A DNA stretch of 64,000 nucleotides from Sulfurovum sp. Lineage in GTDB: Bacteria > Campylobacterota > Campylobacteria > Campylobacterales > Sulfurovaceae. Below, in pieces: positions 47,503-55,184 of this stretch. The position numbers were made by a program, and so were the translations under genes. A model generated the notes under the pieces. The model ran no database searches, was not told where the DNA came from, and saw only the letters and a program-made list of their open reading frames with translations. The DNA is taken from the NCBI GenBank assembly GCA_012329065.1, contig JAAXPZ010000024.1, forward strand, positions 1 to 64,000, in the 5' to 3' direction. The first letter of the stretch is position 1, and every line of letters begins with the position of its first letter.

Positions 47503-47709
47503 CAAGTCTTATTACCGCACCAACATATAATCTGAATTTTGATGAAATCGCTGCACCCTTCGGGGAGAACGAGAAGAAGCGATCTGAAAGCAGATAAATA
47601 TTTGCATTCCCTACGGGGAGTCCTGCATATTTCTCTACTCACATCTCACTCCTTCTCGTTCTCTCAAAGTTTCAGATTATATGTTGGTACGGTAATAAAT
47701 ATAGACTTG
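47503..47709. repeat. MITE-like element with long inverted terminal repeats
   Basis: Arms at 47509-47536 and 47671-47698 are inverted copies with 27 of 28 bases matching (TTATTACCG...TCTGAA). Beyond a five-base bulge the repeat continues as CAAGTCT/AGACTTG at the outer ends. Inner stretches AGAACGAGAAG and CTTCTCGTTCT are also inverted. The element is about 207 bases, has no ORF, and fills the 307-base gap between the RND gene and the next gene. No target duplication is evident. It could be a non-autonomous transposon or a large bidirectional hairpin terminator. Confidence 0.7.
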
Positions 47710-47733
47710 TGAAACGACATTCTAAAAATGCCA

Positions 47734-47955
47734 CTAGCTAACGCTAGCCTCTTTGTTTGAATTCTCTTTTTTCTTATCAGGCTGGTATAGTAGATGATGC
47801 CAAAGTGAAAACCCTACCAATGCAAAACCTGCACCTACATGAAGATTTTTCATAGTTCTGTTTTTCATCTTGAAAGCAGTGGCTACTGTTATACCCATGG
47901 TTGCCGTCATACCTATCTTTGCTATCTCTTTTTGAACTTCTGAATCAATTGCCAT
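47734..47955 (-). CDS. Small membrane protein at the end of the fez-like cluster
   Basis: 73 residues. A short acidic start (MAIDSEVQKEIAKIG) precedes a glycine- and alanine-containing hydrophobic segment (MTATMGITVATAF). A second hydrophobic stretch is HVGAGFALVGFSLWHHLLY, with two adjacent His, then a Lys-rich tail. Preceded by GGAAAG. It overlaps the end of a 40-codon ORF upstream. No family recognised; its size and two-helix shape fit the small proteins of the neighbouring operon, possibly a membrane-shaping or metal-binding component. Confidence 0.55.
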   Translation of the reverse strand: MAIDSEVQKEIAKIGMTATMGITVATAFKMKNRTMKNLHVGAGFALVGFSLWHHLLYQPDKKKENSNKEASVS

Positions 47956-48067
47956 CTTTCCTTTGCTTCCTTCTTCCTCTTCTTTGTATCATCTTCTTGG
48001 TCCCTTTGAAGGTCTCATAGCTTAATGCTACTGTAAGAATCGAAGCTAGCGGTAAAAGTATTGGCAT
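47945..48067 (-). CDS. Possible 40-residue membrane peptide with basic tail
   Basis: An ATG at 48067 follows AAGGATATAGG, a fair ribosome site. The peptide begins MPILLPLASILTVALSYETF, one hydrophobic helix, and ends in a highly basic RRGRRKQRKDGN tail. Its stop overlaps the next start by 11 bases, compatible with translational coupling. It is too short for statistical support, but hydrophobicity, ribosome site and overlap agree. Function unknown. Confidence 0.4.
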   Translation of the reverse strand: MPILLPLASILTVALSYETFKGTKKMIQRRGRRKQRKDGN

Positions 48068-48120
48068 CCTATATCCTTCTGATAGTAATTATCGAAATTA
48101 TAGCATGCAATACTTTAATA

Positions 48121-48137
48121 CTGATAGTATTTATCAG
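48121..48137. promoter_or_regulatory. Perfect dyad CTGATA-N5-TATCAG, candidate operator
   Basis: Six-base arms are separated by five bases. On the minus strand it is followed by TATAAT near 48096 and by the small ORFs starting at 48067. It could be an operator (Fur-like half-sites) for them, or a weak hairpin after the ATPase gene. Confidence 0.35.
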
Positions 48138-48144
48138 CTTTTCG

Positions 48145-50250
48145 CTAAACTCCCTTCATTGAGTTTGCCAACAATCCGATTGTTGTTCCATTATGCAACA
48201 CTGCTGTAGTCAATGGACTAAACATGCCAAGTGTTGCACCTACTAATATCACCGAGTTTATTCCAACTGTTGCATTGAAGTTTGTGCCTATAAGCTTCAT
48301 CGTCTTCATGGACAATTCTTTGGCTTCTGACACAGCCTCTATATCATCTTTTAACAATCCCACATCTGCTGTTGCTTTGGCTATATCTGCACCTTTGCTC
48401 ATGCTTATGCCTACATCAGCACTCATCAGTGCAGGTGCATCGTTGATGCCGTCACCTACAAATGCAACCTTGTATCCATCTGCTTTAATCTTTTTGATGA
48501 TATCAGCCTTGTCTTGAGGTTGCATATTTGCATAAACTGTATCTATACCAAGTTCTTTTGCGAGTTTATTTGCTTTTATTTCGATATCACCTGTAAGCAT
48601 AATTGTCTTTTTGACTCCTAGCTCTTTCAGTTTTGTTATCATAGCTTTGGCATTGTCTCTTACTTTGTCACGCATTCCTATGGTTCCCAAAAGCTTCTTG
48701 TCATATCCTACATAGAGAATGGTTCTACCATCGAGCAGACAAGTCTCTATCGCCTTTTCGTGTTTTGAGAAATCGATACCCTCGTCATCTTCTAGAAAAT
48801 GCCTACTGCCAATGATGACATCTTTGCCATCTATGATAGTTTTAACACCGTGAGCAACGATGAATTCAACTTCTTCATGGTGCATATGGACAAAGCCTTT
48901 TTTCTTGGCAGCCCTAACAATCGCTTCTGCAACAGGATGAAAATAGTGCTCTTCCGCGCTTGCGGTCAAGTTTAGTATCTTTTCTTCACTCCATTTTTTG
49001 TCATATGAAGTTATCTTCTCCACAACTAGCTCACCATAGGTCAAGGTTCCTGTCTTGTCAAATACAAAAGCATCAGCCTCATTGAGAGCTTCTAAAGATT
49101 TAGCCCCTTTGATCATGATACCATTTTTGCCTGCTTTGGCTATAGAGGTTTTGAATGCCACTGGTGTAGCCAGCTTCAGGGCACACGAATAGTCTGCTTG
49201 AAGTACTGACGCCACAGTCTCCATGTCTCGACTTAGAAGATATGAGAATCCTGCCAGACCCAAAGTAACAGGCACAAGCTTATCTGCAAGTTTTGTTGCT
49301 TTTAATCCAACTGCTGACTTTTCATTTAGGGTGCTTGCGATATAGTTTTTGATCCTAGCAGTTGCTGTATCTTCTCCTACACTCTCGGCCCATATTTTTA
49401 TGCGACCCTCTTCCACTACGGTTCCAGAAATGACCCTGTCACCTCTCTCTTTTTTGACTGCCTCACTCTCTCCAGTCATGGAAACTTGATTGACTGATGA
49501 GGTGCCAGATATAATGTGTCCATCTATGGCTATGGTATCGCCAGCTCCAACAACTACTATATCGCCTACTTTGATAGTAGATGTTGCGACCAGTCTCAGC
49601 TCTTTTTTCCCTCTTATGTCAAACTCAACCCATGCTTCTGAGACATTTGGTTTTGCCAATTCTTTTATGAGATCGTCACTTTTGTGTACTGTTGTCTCTT
49701 CTATATACTCTCCAAGCTCCAGCATTACATTGGTACCATTTGCGGCTAGATAATCTTTTCTAGCTAGAGAAACACCCACTGCTAAAGCCTCTAAAACCTT
49801 TGAAGTTAAACCCTCACTATAAAGCTCTTTGACACCTTCGCTCAGAAGAGGCAGAGACGCTGCTGTGCTTAAAGCCAGTTTTGCCCTGTCGTCGCTCACA
49901 AGTCTCTCTGCTACTAGTGCAGACGATGCTCTGATAACTCCAGCCTTTGACGGTTTATCTTCTCCGACACAAGAGCCGCAAACTACATGCTCAGATAGAA
50001 AAGTATCACAAACCTGAAATTGGTCAATATTGAGTGTGTCCAGTTTGCTCTGTATCTGAGCCAAAACGCTCTCATCTTCGTATTTAAATACAATAGAGTT
50101 TGCAAGCTTATTGATACGAACAGAGCTTACTCCATCAATCTCATTTAGCTCATCTTCTAGGCTAGATGGATTGAGATCACTCTTCAAAATATCACAAAGA
50201 AATCTAGCTCTATGTTTGGTCTGGTGAATCAGTATACTATTTGCATTCAT
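48145..50250 (-). CDS. P1B-type metal ATPase with SCA motif (FezB/P1B-6-like)
   Basis: 701 residues. The N-terminal domain (about 1-75) is HMA-like but lacks CxxC; a CGSC pair follows near residue 92. P-type hallmarks: actuator MTGESE, phosphorylation DKTGTLT near residue 398, FHPVAEAIV (HP motif), MLTGD and GDGINDAPAL. The membrane metal-site motif normally CPC reads SCA (DYSCALKLATPVA, about residue 355). As I recall, SCA marks the P1B-6 group, which includes the ferrosome protein FezB. Last gene of the Fur-headed operon, seven bases after the disordered-protein gene. It probably moves iron across a membrane; this is inference from group and neighbours. Confidence 0.82.
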   Translation of the reverse strand: MNANSILIHQTKHRARFLCDILKSDLNPSSLEDELNEIDGVSSVRINKLANSIVFKYEDESVLAQIQSKLDTLNIDQFQVCDTFLSEHVVCGSCVGEDKPSKAGVIRASSALVAERLVSDDRAKLALSTAASLPLLSEGVKELYSEGLTSKVLEALAVGVSLARKDYLAANGTNVMLELGEYIEETTVHKSDDLIKELAKPNVSEAWVEFDIRGKKELRLVATSTIKVGDIVVVGAGDTIAIDGHIISGTSSVNQVSMTGESEAVKKERGDRVISGTVVEEGRIKIWAESVGEDTATARIKNYIASTLNEKSAVGLKATKLADKLVPVTLGLAGFSYLLSRDMETVASVLQADYSCALKLATPVAFKTSIAKAGKNGIMIKGAKSLEALNEADAFVFDKTGTLTYGELVVEKITSYDKKWSEEKILNLTASAEEHYFHPVAEAIVRAAKKKGFVHMHHEEVEFIVAHGVKTIIDGKDVIIGSRHFLEDDEGIDFSKHEKAIETCLLDGRTILYVGYDKKLLGTIGMRDKVRDNAKAMITKLKELGVKKTIMLTGDIEIKANKLAKELGIDTVYANMQPQDKADIIKKIKADGYKVAFVGDGINDAPALMSADVGISMSKGADIAKATADVGLLKDDIEAVSEAKELSMKTMKLIGTNFNATVGINSVILVGATLGMFSPLTTAVLHNGTTIGLLANSMKGV

Positions 50251-50256
50251 GATAGA

Positions 50257-50754
50257 CTAGCTTTCAGCATCCAGTTCAGCTTTTGCATCTTCAAATCTCT
50301 CTTTCATTTCTTCCATACCTGATTGAAACATACCTGTTGTTTTTACAACACCTTTAAATATTGTTTTTTGGGCTTTTTCATTTGTAAGCAAATATGCTCC
50401 TATTGCCCCAATCAAAGCACCTTTGATAAAGTTTTCAGTGTCAAAAGACCCAAGCAAGGAGCTGTTGTTTTGCTGCTGTGGCATTGCATTTACACTACCA
50501 AAATAAGGGTTTTGTCCAAAGTTTTGTGACATTTGATTTGGCATGTTGTCAACATTTCTCATATTGTCCATATTGCTATAGTAAGGATTTTGCCCAAGCT
50601 GATCTTGAGCCATAGTTTGATCTACATAAGGGTTTTTACTAAATCCTCTTTGAGATTTTTGACTAGCCTGTTCCATAGGGCTATTATTTCTCATTCCGTT
50701 GTTATTCATGCCTTGACCTTGACTTTGCTCCGATTGATTATTCGGGTTATTCAT
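50257..50754 (-). CDS. Disordered Asn/Gln/Met-rich protein with glycine-zipper segment
   Basis: 165 residues. The first 100 are low in complexity and rich in Asn, Gln, Met and Ser. NPY recurs three times (KNPYVDQ, QNPYYSN, QNPYFGS). Then one glycine-rich hydrophobic segment (FIKGALIGAIGAYLL) and an amphipathic charged helix (MEEMKERFEDAKAELDAES) follow, a YtxH-like end. No catalytic motif. Such architecture fits a membrane-bound scaffold that could coat or shape a compartment. Overlaps the upstream gene by one base. Function not established. Confidence 0.7.
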   Translation of the reverse strand: MNNPNNQSEQSQGQGMNNNGMRNNSPMEQASQKSQRGFSKNPYVDQTMAQDQLGQNPYYSNMDNMRNVDNMPNQMSQNFGQNPYFGSVNAMPQQQNNSSLLGSFDTENFIKGALIGAIGAYLLTNEKAQKTIFKGVVKTTGMFQSGMEEMKERFEDAKAELDAES

Positions 50755-51083
50755 TATTTTGTCTCCTTTGTAGCTAATTCTGGATTTTTTTCATACATTT
50801 CGGATATTTTCTGAGCACCATAGATACCCATTGCCCCGATACTTAATGCTGTCAATGCAGCAACATAGTTGCCTCTTCCAATATAGTTTGCCGTGGCTAT
50901 AGCACTAGCTGTACCTACACCACCTTGTGTAGCTAGTTTTGTTGTGTCTTGAATCATCTCATCTTTTGAAATCTCATTTTTTTTATATTTATTGTAGTTC
51001 ATTGATCCTGCAAATATGGCAGAAAAAACCGTACCACTAATAAAGTGTCCAGCTACACTTCTCTCATCACCTGTATCTATCAT
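50754..51083 (-). CDS. Small glycine-zipper membrane protein
   Basis: 109 residues with three hydrophobic, glycine/alanine-rich stretches: HFISGTVFSAIFAGSMNY, TQGGVGTASAIATANYIG and AALTALSIGAMGIYGAQ. Charged loops lie between and a Lys/Glu tail ends it. Overlaps its upstream neighbour by four bases. Small membrane proteins with glycine zippers occur in fez and magnetosome operons, where they help build the compartment membrane. No named family recognised. Confidence 0.68.
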   Translation of the reverse strand: MIDTGDERSVAGHFISGTVFSAIFAGSMNYNKYKKNEISKDEMIQDTTKLATQGGVGTASAIATANYIGRGNYVAALTALSIGAMGIYGAQKISEMYEKNPELATKETK

Positions 51084-51370
51084 TTTTCATCCTCTTTTAC
51101 TTTTGTTGTTGTTCTTTTTGTTGTAGCTCTTTTGGTCACTTTCTTTGGTGTTTCTGTTTTGACCTCATCTTCAGCTGTCATCTCATGTACTTTTTTCTTG
51201 ACAGTCTCTGCTGCTTTGCCTACTGTTTCTTTGACTTCTGTTGCACCTTTTGTGATCGCTTCTTTTGCTTCACTTGCACCTTTGCTTATGGTCTCTGTTA
51301 TCGTTCTTCTTTTTGTGACAGCGACTACTACAGCCACGCCCATTACGGTTCCTGCTATAAATGGTAACAT
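51080..51370 (-). CDS. Small single-helix protein with repeated amphipathic segments
   Basis: 96 residues from the ATG at 51370 (AAAGGA upstream, four bases after the previous stop); an upstream in-frame start would overlap that gene heavily. One N-terminal membrane helix (MLPFIAGTVMGVAVVVAV). Then come near-repeats of an 11-residue amphipathic pattern (SKGASEAKEAI, TKGATEVKETV, GKAAETVKKKV), like LEA or apolipoprotein helices. A Lys/Thr-rich tail follows. The repeats suggest binding along a membrane surface. No known family. Confidence 0.68.
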   Translation of the reverse strand: MLPFIAGTVMGVAVVVAVTKRRTITETISKGASEAKEAITKGATEVKETVGKAAETVKKKVHEMTAEDEVKTETPKKVTKRATTKRTTTKVKEDEK

Positions 51371-51374
51371 TTTT

Positions 51375-52103
51375 TTATCCTTTATCTTTTGTATCATGAG
51401 GATTTTCTTCATCCTCTGATTTAAATAGTTTGGGCAATATCGCTGCACCTAAACCACCTGCTACTACACCACCAATAAATGACATATTGGTATTTCCTAA
51501 TATCTTCATCATGTCTTCTTGGCTCATTTTGCCTGTAGCGATTTTTTGAGCTATTTCTGAAAACTCATTAATCTTCTCATTCATTTCCTGCATATTTGGA
51601 TTTGACTGAAAGGTTGTGTCACCTATATCGCCAGCCCCGTCGTTTGAGTAGGATCTCACACAGTTCCTAAATGCTGGGAGATGATTATTGTACGAAGCTG
51701 CTTGGACACGGTATAGAACATCCGTTACATCTGCATACTCTGTACTGTACTGAAGTAGATTATCATACATTCTGATATTTTCTATCTCAGCAGCAACACC
51801 AAGCTCACAACACTCCACTAGAGTATCAGGAACCTCTATTTTGTCATACCAGTTATCTATCGGTACGGGCACCTGATATTTCTCAAGTAGAGGTAAGAGC
51901 ATACTGTAGTGTCTAACCTCTGCCTTCATTATGTTTGCAAATGGTCTGACTGATCCAAATGTATCTATGATTTTTCTATAAGCTTCATATGCATGAAACT
52001 CATCATAGATGGCGATCCTTAGCACTTGATGTAGTATTGGCTCATCAAGAGAAGGATCAACCCTCTGGGCAACCAGCAGTGCTTCATCAAAATTTACTTC
52101 CAT
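51375..52103 (-). CDS. Ferritin-like (DUF2202-type) protein with C-terminal membrane segment
   Basis: 242 residues. Residues about 20-145 form a ferritin-like four-helix bundle: IYDEFHAYEAYRKI (Glu35), IMKAEVRHYSMLLPLL (Glu and His), GVAAEIENIRMYDNLL (two Glu) and SYNNHLPAFRNCV (His). These are spaced as metal ligands in DUF2202/rubrerythrin-like proteins. A flexible linker leads to a glycine-rich hydrophobic segment (FIGGVVAGGLGAAILPKLF) and an acidic tail, so the bundle is probably tethered to a membrane. It could oxidise or bind iron at that membrane. Starts one base after the HMA-like gene ends. Confidence 0.78.
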   Translation of the reverse strand: MEVNFDEALLVAQRVDPSLDEPILHQVLRIAIYDEFHAYEAYRKIIDTFGSVRPFANIMKAEVRHYSMLLPLLEKYQVPVPIDNWYDKIEVPDTLVECCELGVAAEIENIRMYDNLLQYSTEYADVTDVLYRVQAASYNNHLPAFRNCVRSYSNDGAGDIGDTTFQSNPNMQEMNEKINEFSEIAQKIATGKMSQEDMMKILGNTNMSFIGGVVAGGLGAAILPKLFKSEDEENPHDTKDKG

Positions 52104-52418
52104 TTACGCTACCTCCTTGTATAATTTATTTATAATTTCTGCCACCTCATCGAGGTTTTCTCCCTCAACTAAGTTATCCCACAGCTCTTTTTTAAAGATA
52201 CTAGGATTATACTCTATGGTTATGGAACCTATAAGTTTGTTAATCTTTATTTTGTTTATGCCTTCGATTTGTTTGGGCAGGTTTTCTATATCATTTATAG
52301 ATATAGTCCCTTTCTGCTCTACAATCTTTGGGCTAACTCTTAACCTTATTCTACCATTAGCATGGCTTATAGTACTAAAGTAAGATGCTAGTTCGATTAA
52401 TTTTTCTGCCGTTATCAA
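52104..52418 (-). CDS. HMA2-like small protein
   Basis: 104 residues, no signal peptide or cysteines. The pattern AKLI..ASYFSTISHANGRIRLRVSPKI, then KQIEGINKIKINKLIGSITIEYNPSIF, matches the beta-alpha-beta fold of HMA2-type domains without the CxxC. The N-terminus of the SCA-type ATPase has the same shape (HRARFLCD ... GVSSVRINKLANSIVFKY), so the two are probably related. AAAGGAGGC precedes the start. Likely partner of the ATPases. Confidence 0.68.
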   Translation of the reverse strand: MITAEKLIELASYFSTISHANGRIRLRVSPKIVEQKGTISINDIENLPKQIEGINKIKINKLIGSITIEYNPSIFKKELWDNLVEGENLDEVAEIINKLYKEVA

Positions 52419-52482
52419 TTTGCCTCCTTTCTTATATGTTCGTCATTATCGCTTCTTAAATTTAAGCGAAACTTAAAGTGAA

Positions 52483-54678
52483 TTAAGAGCCGATATCAAT
52501 ATCTTCTTTTGCATGAAGGTTGTCTTTACTGCCTATTGTGAGCCTAGATGAATTTAGCATAATAGCACCTGTATGTCCTATGTGGATGGCACCAGCAGCA
52601 GCTGGACTTAACATGCCAAATGCTGCAAATCCAACTCCGAGCAGATTTGTTCCTGTACCTATCCAATAATTTTGCTCTACAACCTTCAAGGTACTTTTAC
52701 TAATATTGTAAAGCTCTACTACATCTTGAGGATGCGAGTGACTTATGGCTATATTGGATACATCTATAGCAGCTTTGCTTCCACCTACTGCAAATGAGAT
52801 TGCTACATCTGCTTTGCTCATTGCTAATGTATCATTGACCCCGTCTCCAACCATTACAACATTATGATATTTTTTCTTTAGCTGCTCTACAGCATCTGCT
52901 TTGTCTCTTGGTGATTGGTTTGCATAGACTGTGTCAAAGCCAAATTCTTTGGCAAATGCATTGGCTACTTTTTCGTCATCACCACTGACTAATGCAATAT
53001 GTTTAACCCCATGAGCTCTCAAGTCACTAAGCATTTTCTTAGTACCTTTACGAACTTCATGCCTAAGCACTATAAATCCCAATGCCTTTTTATCAACAGC
53101 TATATATACTATGGTATCCCCATCTTGTAGGTGCTTATCTGCCTTATCTTTTAGATCCTTGGTAGATATTTTATGATTTGATAAGAACTTTTTATTTCCG
53201 ACCAATATGAACATGCCATCAAACTTAGCTTTCACGCCAAGGCCAGGTATAGTCTCACTTTGAACACTTTGGTTTATTTTAATTTTTTTCTCTTGTGCAT
53301 ATTTAACAATAGATACTGCCAAAGGGTGCGTATTGCGATACTCCGCCATTGCCGCGTATTTTAAAATCTCAGTTTTTGTACTACCCTTGAGGGCGTATAT
53401 CTCTTCTATGATTGGTCTACCTGTGGTTAGTGTCCCTGTCTTATCAAAACAGAAAACCTCACTTTGGCTTACTTGCTCTAATGCTTCTCCGCCTTTGATC
53501 AAAATACCTTGTTTTGCTCCTTTTGCAATACCAGCACTTATGGCTGTAGATGCTGCTAACACCGTAGCACAAGGACAAGACATCACTATCATTACAGAAA
53601 ATGCATTGAGATAGGAGCCTGTAAACATAAAAGTTCCAACTGTCAAGAAGCTTCCTAGCTTTAGAAGTCTGGATGCTAGCTTGTCAGCTTCCATCTGGGC
53701 GGGAGATTTTATAGCTAAAGCATTTTCTACATCACTCATGACTCTTGAGATATATGTTTTATTGCCAATTGCATTGACTTTTATTCCCACCCTACCTCTT
53801 TCGAGCATGGTTCCAGCGTAAACAATATCATCCATAGCTTTGTATGTGGCATCACTCCTACCATTAATAAGAGCTTCGTTGACCTCACAACTTCCATCGA
53901 TTATCATACCATCAACAGGAATTTTTTCTCCACTACGGCATACTACAATATCATCTTGCTTGAGATCAGCTAAATCAATCTCTAATTCGACCCCGTCACA
54001 GAGTATAAAAACTTTTTGTATATCAAGCTCTATGAGTTTGTGTATCTCATTTTTAGACTTGATCGCTATATAATCTTCAAGCAGCATAGCCCCACGAAGT
54101 ATATAGATAATCTCAAATGCAGCTGTAGCTTCTCCAAAAAGTATAGCCAAAGCAAGAGTTCCACCCATAAAAGTCTCAAGGGTAAATTTACCTCGTTTTG
54201 CATCTTCCCATGATTCTCTCAGAAGTGGTACCGCAGCTACCATAGCCACAACAGCCACGAGAGAAAGAGGACTTGCCACAACCGTAAGACCCAAAACAGT
54301 CTCAGTAACAAAAAGAAATATAGAATATCCTGTAAGTAGCCCAAACTCTATAGTTCTTCTTTTGAATGATACAGGGTTAACCTCTGTTCTAGTGCAGCTT
54401 GTACAATCCTCATCACTACCGCAGACAGCAGTAGAAGCTGGGATAGAATGTAATATAATAGTAGGAAATAGTGCTTTTATTTTTCTTATAATCTCATCTA
54501 GGGATGTATTGTCGTTATGTACAAAAACAATAGACTTGCATGATAAGTTTTCTCTAAAGCTCAGTAGGTTGCCAGAGAGTTCGTTTGATATCAATATCGT
54601 GTTTGATTTACTTTTAAATATATTAGATTTTAATCTTACACGATTTCCTGCGATGCTTTTAATTAGCAATTCATCCAT
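52483..54678 (-). CDS. P1B-type metal ATPase with CPC motif
   Basis: 731 residues from ATG 54678, chosen because AAGGAT lies upstream and it starts 13 bases after the fur-like gene; a longer form would overlap that gene. The N-terminal 120 residues hold a degenerate HMA-like part and a Cys cluster (CGSDEDCTSC). Helices about 125-165 precede the actuator domain. The metal motif is MSCPCATVLAAST (about 367). DKTGTLTTG is near 411, then the HP motif (NTHPLAVSIV) and GDGVNDTLAM. CPC ATPases usually export Cu+ or Zn2+/Cd2+, but clustering with iron-related genes leaves the metal open. Two P1B ATPases in one operon is notable. Confidence 0.85.
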   Translation of the reverse strand: MDELLIKSIAGNRVRLKSNIFKSKSNTILISNELSGNLLSFRENLSCKSIVFVHNDNTSLDEIIRKIKALFPTIILHSIPASTAVCGSDEDCTSCTRTEVNPVSFKRRTIEFGLLTGYSIFLFVTETVLGLTVVASPLSLVAVVAMVAAVPLLRESWEDAKRGKFTLETFMGGTLALAILFGEATAAFEIIYILRGAMLLEDYIAIKSKNEIHKLIELDIQKVFILCDGVELEIDLADLKQDDIVVCRSGEKIPVDGMIIDGSCEVNEALINGRSDATYKAMDDIVYAGTMLERGRVGIKVNAIGNKTYISRVMSDVENALAIKSPAQMEADKLASRLLKLGSFLTVGTFMFTGSYLNAFSVMIVMSCPCATVLAASTAISAGIAKGAKQGILIKGGEALEQVSQSEVFCFDKTGTLTTGRPIIEEIYALKGSTKTEILKYAAMAEYRNTHPLAVSIVKYAQEKKIKINQSVQSETIPGLGVKAKFDGMFILVGNKKFLSNHKISTKDLKDKADKHLQDGDTIVYIAVDKKALGFIVLRHEVRKGTKKMLSDLRAHGVKHIALVSGDDEKVANAFAKEFGFDTVYANQSPRDKADAVEQLKKKYHNVVMVGDGVNDTLAMSKADVAISFAVGGSKAAIDVSNIAISHSHPQDVVELYNISKSTLKVVEQNYWIGTGTNLLGVGFAAFGMLSPAAAGAIHIGHTGAIMLNSSRLTIGSKDNLHAKEDIDIGS

Positions 54679-54691
54679 TTTCAATCTATCC

Positions 54692-55150
54692 TTATTTTGT
54701 CTTACAGTTTTGACATAGCCCATATAATATCATACTGTGGCTTTGTAGAATAAAGTTATTTTCCTTTGCGATACACTCTTGTAGCTCTTCTATCTTTTCA
54801 TTCACAAATTCGATGATTTTACTACACTTGAGACAAACAATATGATCATGGTGTGCATATAGATCCAGCTCATACACTTTTGTATCACTGCCCTCTATGC
54901 TGATGCTTTTTACTACCTTTAACTCTTCTAGAAGAGTTAATATTTTATAGACTGTTGTCATGCCTATAGAGACCTTATGCTCATCTCTTACTTTAGACAA
55001 TATTTGCTCAGCATTTAAGTGATCTTCATTATTAAATAATACCTTGAGTACATATTCTCTCTGTATCGAGCTATTGAGACCCAGTGATTTTATCAATTCT
55101 TTAAATCTGATGATATATTCATCATAACCTATCGTCAAATCTTGACCCAT
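54692..55150 (-). CDS. Fur/PerR-family regulator
   Basis: 152 residues. Winged-helix part about 20-90 (LNAEQILSKVRD...SIGMTTVYKILTLLEEL) is followed by the Fur metal-binding region AHHDHIVCLKCSKIIEF (His and CxxC zinc site). The C-terminus CQNC provides the second cysteine pair. It heads the ATPase operon and has a Fur-like dyad upstream, suggesting autoregulation. Could be Fur, PerR or a cluster-specific paralogue; sequence alone does not separate them. Confidence 0.9.
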   Translation of the reverse strand: MGQDLTIGYDEYIIRFKELIKSLGLNSSIQREYVLKVLFNNEDHLNAEQILSKVRDEHKVSIGMTTVYKILTLLEELKVVKSISIEGSDTKVYELDLYAHHDHIVCLKCSKIIEFVNEKIEELQECIAKENNFILQSHSMILYGLCQNCKTK

Positions 55151-55164
55151 CTAGCTTCCTCTGT

Positions 55165-55184
55165 ATAATTGATAATTATAATTA
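55165..55184 (-). promoter_or_regulatory. Fur-like dyad upstream of the fur-like gene
   Basis: AATTGATAATTATAATTA is an A+T inverted repeat about 17 bases before the start codon of the regulator. It is the expected place for autoregulation of the whole operon. Visual match. Confidence 0.5.

Follow-up and report, generated by a model that had tools for sequence, protein, structure and literature searches.

We analysed a window of 64,000 nucleotides of Sulfurovum sp. DNA (contig JAAXPZ010000024.1, positions 1 to 64,000) and find in it a ten-gene unit that is very probably a Campylobacterota-type fez operon, controlled by Fur and making ferrosomes. The sequence features that point to this reading are the ten-gene unit itself, a metal-pumping ATPase of the P1B-6 type (FezB), a FezC-like hairpin protein, Fur boxes, a gene order conserved among relatives, and the linkage to fezB of a ferritin-like protein and a second, CPC-type ATPase. 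An initial annotation of the window had left the choice between a divergent ferrosome and a new iron compartment. The former is supported by the position of FezB in the SCA clade, the FezC-type protein, the Fur boxes in tandem and an Azospirillum cluster of six genes that corresponds to it, and the latter is not needed, the rest of the operon being equal to that six-gene plan.

The ten genes lie on the minus strand from 55150 to 47734 and are overlapping or narrowly spaced. They encode, in order, a Fur-family regulator at the operon head (54692-55150), a CPC-type P1B ATPase (52483-54678), an HMA2-domain protein that is likely a metal chaperone (52104-52418), a ferritin-like protein (51375-52103), a lysine-rich glycine-zipper small membrane protein of 96 amino acids (51080-51370), a MamC-like small membrane protein of 109 amino acids (50754-51083), an N/Q-rich protein of 165 amino acids with a YtxH-like glycine zipper and a coiled tail (50257-50754), the SCA-type P1B ATPase FezB (48145-50250), a conserved small protein of 40 amino acids (47945-48067), and a hairpin protein of 73 amino acids (47734-47955). 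The initial annotation had described an eight-gene unit; all eight genes are present in that order between 48145 and 55150, but two further genes belong, so that the unit is one of ten genes spanning 47734-55150. The two that were overlooked earlier are those for the 40- and 73-amino-acid proteins, which lie downstream of fezB, separated from it by a 77-base gap with tandem Fur boxes, and which stand in the same place in relatives (the 40-amino-acid gene in the majority of sampled loci). The annotated end point of 55184 proved to be the edge of a Fur-box-like site, and the assignments of the Fur, HMA2 and ferritin-like proteins hold up in profile matches of the window proteins (PF01475, E=3e-31; PF19991, E=1e-7; DUF2202, E=3e-4). 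The HMA2 gene starts with TTG and has AAAGGAGG ahead of it. The start of the 122-amino-acid open reading frame is most likely the ATG at 51370, which gives 96 amino acids, and that of the CPC-type ATPase most likely the ATG at 54678, though its reading frame is open from 54723; these starts were chosen because homologues begin there.

To compare this arrangement across the phylum, we used 46 Campylobacterota loci, the window included, and 397 Campylobacterota genomes. The recurrent order in the loci, with few gaps, is HMA2, ferritin-like, small protein, MamC-like, YtxH-like, FezB, 40-amino-acid protein and FezC-like protein. The HMA2 and YtxH-like genes are present in all 46 loci, the small glycine-zipper protein in 45, the ferritin-like and MamC-like genes in 44 each, and the FezC-like gene in 40; the Fur-family regulator heads 23 loci and the CPC-type ATPase occurs in 12. 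Because the order is kept in 45 further loci, in other genera and families, a chance arrangement in the window is excluded.

FezB of the window has an N-terminal HMA2 domain, the motif DYSCALKL in transmembrane segment 4 (TM4), and HNGTT in TM6. The SCA motif is the mark of P1B-6 ATPases. In a phylogeny of 108 P1B ATPases, window FezB falls in one SCA clade (Shimodaira-Hasegawa-like approximate likelihood-ratio support, SH-aLRT, 98) that also holds ATPases from gut Firmicutes, Methanobrevibacter, a Desulfovibrionaceae and purple bacteria, and the sampled CPC-type groups lie outside it. A position of this ATPase outside P1B-6 had been named beforehand as refuting the ferrosome proposal, but the protein lies inside the clade. 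Table 4 of PMC7558416 lists the P1B-6 group as pumping Fe(II). Two observations concern the wider tree. The SCA-clade FezB-type ATPases of gut methanogens (Methanobrevibacter and Methanovirga; loci L104, L105, L107 and L108) nest beside Anaerotignum, a member of the Firmicutes, a pattern that suggests transfer between the two domains. A clade adjoining the SCA ATPases is without the TM4 cysteine, having MTG, VTG, ASG or GTG instead, and comes from cyanobacteria, Chloroflexi and Acidocella (L116, L120, L126 and L135).

FezC is a DUF4405-like haem cytochrome, whose haem sites can form by homodimerisation (PMC11334425). The 73-amino-acid protein gives a sub-threshold DUF4405 match (E=0.0036), as do 7 of 23 homologues, also below threshold. 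Among its homologues His53 is invariant and His39 is found in 42 of 43. Taken with its constant position, the DUF4405 match and the histidine pair argue that this gene encodes a FezC-type protein, probably half of a haem cytochrome, with predicted haem binding. In 5 of 23 homologues a SpoIIAA-like domain is joined to the C-terminal side of the hairpin (best E=2.5e-21; for example L046:11868-12503, L048:11649-12299, L059:11984-12616 and L094:10416-11015), which suggests a regulatory or membrane-binding addition to the ferrosome cytochrome.

Fur-box-like sites, each differing from the sequence TGATAATNATTATCA at two positions, are found ahead of the regulator gene (55170-55184) and twice in the gap between fezB and the 40-amino-acid gene (48122-48136 and 48080-48094), and just three other places in the 64 kb are as good. 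In relatives, 17 of 22 gaps that separate fezB from the following gene hold a site with three or fewer mismatches, compared with 1.3 expected from shuffles that preserve base composition only, as do 19 of 28 stretches ahead of HMA2, where 1.8 are expected. The picture far upstream is less distinct, with 16 of 46 and 4.3 expected. From the boxes in the window and their enrichment in relatives, the operon is predicted to be repressed by Fur and expressed upon iron starvation. The operon's own regulator scores far below the Fur equivalog cut-offs in a genome that encodes five Fur-family proteins, and by this measure it is not the housekeeping Fur.

The small membrane proteins were compared beyond the phylum as well. 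The 109-amino-acid protein matches the NCBIfam MamC profile (E=1.9e-6), its residues 9-89 aligning with profile positions 8-88 of 97. The profile also matches 21 of 28 homologues, the best at 6.3e-10. With 28 bits against an equivalog cut-off of 100, the window protein is a relative of MamC (Mms13) and not a member of the family; it is likely a distant relation of this magnetosome mineral-shaping protein. MamC-like members are also present in clusters of Azospirillum, Vibrio and Hahella, so the gene belongs to the general fez plan and not to the Campylobacterota variant alone. The YtxH-like protein occurs in these clusters and in that of Rhodobacter. The Vibrio, Cereibacter, Hahella and Rhodobacter clusters have, directly before the MamC-like gene, a disordered protein rich in P, W, Y and M that ends in an EFWKGA-type glycine zipper (L088:6658-7380, L089:6326-6877, L092:6671-7204 and L099:6831-7343); its position is that of the ferritin-like and small proteins in Campylobacterota.

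The Azospirillum cluster is on a plasmid of Azospirillum brasilense (NZ_CP033321.1, L087). It consists of six genes, namely an HMA2 domain fused to the FezC-like hairpin at the cluster front, followed by HMA2, the small glycine-zipper protein, MamC-like, YtxH-like and FezB in the same order as in the window, without a ferritin-like gene and without a CPC-type ATPase. With this cluster and the 46 loci, glycine-zipper small membrane proteins appear as conserved neighbours of fezB and as predicted parts of the system. In Rhodopseudomonas palustris, six fez genes give rise to ferrosomes (PMC12016538), and for this reason the Azospirillum-type plan is very likely the known fez plan.

The initial annotation had singled out the ferritin-like protein and the CPC-type ATPase as unusual parts, and both are real, conserved and linked to fezB. 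Among homologues of the former, Pfam finds DUF2202 in 18 of 25 and rubrerythrin in 16 of 25, and a profile of the family run against the PDB matches the DUF2202 protein MJ0754 (3q4n) with E=5.7e-7. An AlphaFold model built from two sequences only gives a four-helix bundle, as in MJ0754, with block values of the predicted local distance difference test (pLDDT) mostly 76-87 across the bundle; a Foldseek search with this model returns MJ0754 as the best match and then bacterioferritins with weaker E-values. The DUF2202 bundle covers residues ~20-155 and a glycine-zipper tail residues ~175-226. Residues E35, E62xxH65, E106 and H141 are spread over the four helices in a diiron-like arrangement in which Y138 replaces the glutamate of the second ExxH, so the model and the alignment predict a metal site with diiron-type ligands. 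Stand-alone DUF2202 proteins of other bacteria have the same E, ExxH, E and H but lack the last ~80 residues with the glycine-zipper tail, and no other fez gene was found at the five such gammaproteobacterial loci examined. The fez version is therefore DUF2202 plus a helix and a glycine-zipper segment. This tail resembles the glycine zippers of the other small fez proteins; the likeness is short, and the profile comparison supports a common origin weakly.

Comparing the two lists of genomes, we find the ferritin-like protein in 124 of the 136 FezB-positive genomes, and the phylum has four other ferritin-like matches, all restricted to the DUF2202 part. In the 36 nearest relatives of the window genome the protein was not found, save one weak match, and the window genome has two ordinary ferritin-family genes elsewhere. 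Other SCA-clade loci led to 16 genomes, and among these the protein is confined to the Sulfurospirillum and a single gammaproteobacterial metagenome-assembled genome (MAG), whose FezB nests among those of Campylobacterota. The full set of five site residues is kept in 27 of 44 members. Loss of E62 mostly goes with loss of H65 and of H141 (Fisher p=1.6e-6 and 2.0e-9, with relatedness ignored), and the losses are mainly in one family (f10, probably Campylobacteraceae). This joint loss argues for one metal site and speaks against all members being catalytic.

The CPC-type ATPase has SCPCAT in TM4, HIGHT in TM6 and an N-terminal cysteine motif. It is found in 19 of the 397 genomes (E<=1e-100), all of them FezB-positive, and in 19 of 19 it lies 1968-2305 bases before fezB on the same strand; co-occurrence alone gives Fisher p=6e-10. 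Because all 19 are inside fez operons, this ATPase is a fez-dedicated pump. With P1B-1 copper and P1B-2 zinc ATPases it shares CPC in TM4 and the general P1B architecture. It differs from them in having HxxHT in TM6, in 11 of 11 aligned members, instead of the MxxSS of copper pumps, and in forming its own clade on a long stem (support 100) in the 108-ATPase tree, so by motif and clade it is not a P1B-1 copper pump. The TM6 histidine may recall the divalent-metal groups. No copy was found on plasmids at E<=1e-100. One locus (L010:2507-2914) has before HMA2 a 135-amino-acid open reading frame that matches just the N-terminal part of the ATPase and is either a remnant or a stand-alone N-terminal domain.

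The operon is patchy in the phylum, with FezB in 136 of the 397 sampled genomes, and within the window's own family it is confined, among the members listed, to the window's genome. The nearest FezB relatives, at 69-74% identity, come from family f8, probably Arcobacteraceae, and family f20, which groups with Sulfurospirillum; the window genome (1.94 Mb, 82 contigs) is a Campylobacterota genome whose loci cluster with a Sulfurospirillum MAG (L091). The simplest reading of this pattern is that the operon was gained by horizontal acquisition. Two Arcobacter strains from chicken meat carry a fez cluster, including the ferritin-like gene, on a 133-kb plasmid (L086, CP129951.1, 128912-133388), which is likely a vehicle of its spread.

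If the operon works as its genes suggest, iron shortage would release Fur from its boxes and the operon would be expressed. The HMA2 protein would pass Fe(II) to FezB, which would pump it into a vesicle with the small glycine-zipper proteins in its membrane. This core, vesicle loading by FezB under Fur control, is well supported. FezC would carry electrons across the vesicle membrane and so set the redox state of the iron, and the MamC-like protein would act at the surface between membrane and mineral. The ferritin-like protein would sit on the vesicle membrane through its glycine-zipper tail, where it would bind iron and probably oxidise or stage it, and the CPC-type ATPase would be a second pump of the same vesicle, serving iron release or another divalent metal. 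The roles we infer for the MamC-like protein, the ferritin-like protein and the CPC-type ATPase are the least certain. We consider tentatively, and as rather doubtful, a hybrid Campylobacterota ferrosome, fed with iron by a pump, in which the tethered ferritin-like diiron protein would oxidise or stage that iron and the fez-dedicated CPC/HxxHT ATPase would unload it on demand, so that loading and unloading have separate pumps.

The alternative that takes the two ATPases at face value is a metal-detoxification operon, with both pumps moving copper, zinc or surplus iron out through the cell membrane and no vesicle involved. Both ATPases match general heavy-metal-pump models, HMA2 chaperones accompany them, and the CPC motif is typical of copper and zinc pumps. 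Nevertheless, FezB sits in the SCA clade, the Fur boxes predict expression under iron shortage rather than excess, and the conserved FezC, MamC-like, YtxH-like and ferritin-like genes do not fit an efflux system, so we regard detoxification as unlikely. An iron compartment distinct from ferrosomes and built on the tethered ferritin-like protein would account for the ferritin-like protein and second ATPase being constant, linked extras, but the remainder of the operon is that of the six-gene cluster, and in a few Campylobacterota loci (L071, L085) the core is kept without the ferritin-like gene, which makes this reading very unlikely. A magnetosome-like island forming magnetite, toward which the MamC matches of the homologues point, is more improbable still and was rejected: the MamC score of the window protein is sub-threshold, the ten proteins gave no match to any other magnetosome family, and the same MamC-like gene is part of the fez-type clusters of Azospirillum, Vibrio and Hahella.

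Several points weigh against the fez-operon reading. For this organism ferrosome granules are a prediction from the genes, and homology to proven Fez proteins is argued from gene order, motif and clade. Both the DUF4405 and the MamC matches lie under curated cut-offs, and the loss of metal-site residues in about a third of sampled members suggests that a ferroxidase role is not general.

The proven fez operons of Desulfovibrio magneticus, R. palustris, Shewanella putrefaciens and Clostridioides difficile have in common with the window a P1B-6 FezB, a FezC-type DUF4405-like cytochrome, small membrane proteins and Fur control. To this the window-type operon would add the ferritin-like protein of the DUF2202 type and, in the smaller part of the loci, the CPC-type ATPase; both are missing from the loci examined in Azospirillum, Vibrio, Hahella, Rhodobacter, Firmicutes and Methanobrevibacter. 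Our literature search, whose reach did not extend to the founding ferrosome papers of 2022/2023, found no mention of DUF2202. The core is a known system, and the ferritin-like and CPC parts are new in so far as those papers do not mention them. Ferrosomes are bacterial organelles of recent discovery, with much of their composition and chemistry still to be worked out, and ferritin and ferrosome, two modes of iron storage usually treated separately, would here be joined in one operon, which links ferritins, ferrosomes and, via MamC, magnetosomes. A third of the sampled Campylobacterota genomes carry a fixed version with the ferritin-like part, and a minority have the extra pump; the carriers probably belong to the families of Campylobacter, Helicobacter and Arcobacter and to further ones. 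Iron oxidation and mineralisation inside ferrosomes become testable through the ferritin-like protein, FezC and the MamC-like protein, and iron release through the second ATPase.

Just downstream of the FezC-like gene is a repeat of ~180 bases (47530-47710) with inverted symmetry inside. Near-full copies occur elsewhere in the genome (94% on C78, 79% on C23) along with partial ones, and the repeat could be a small mobile element.

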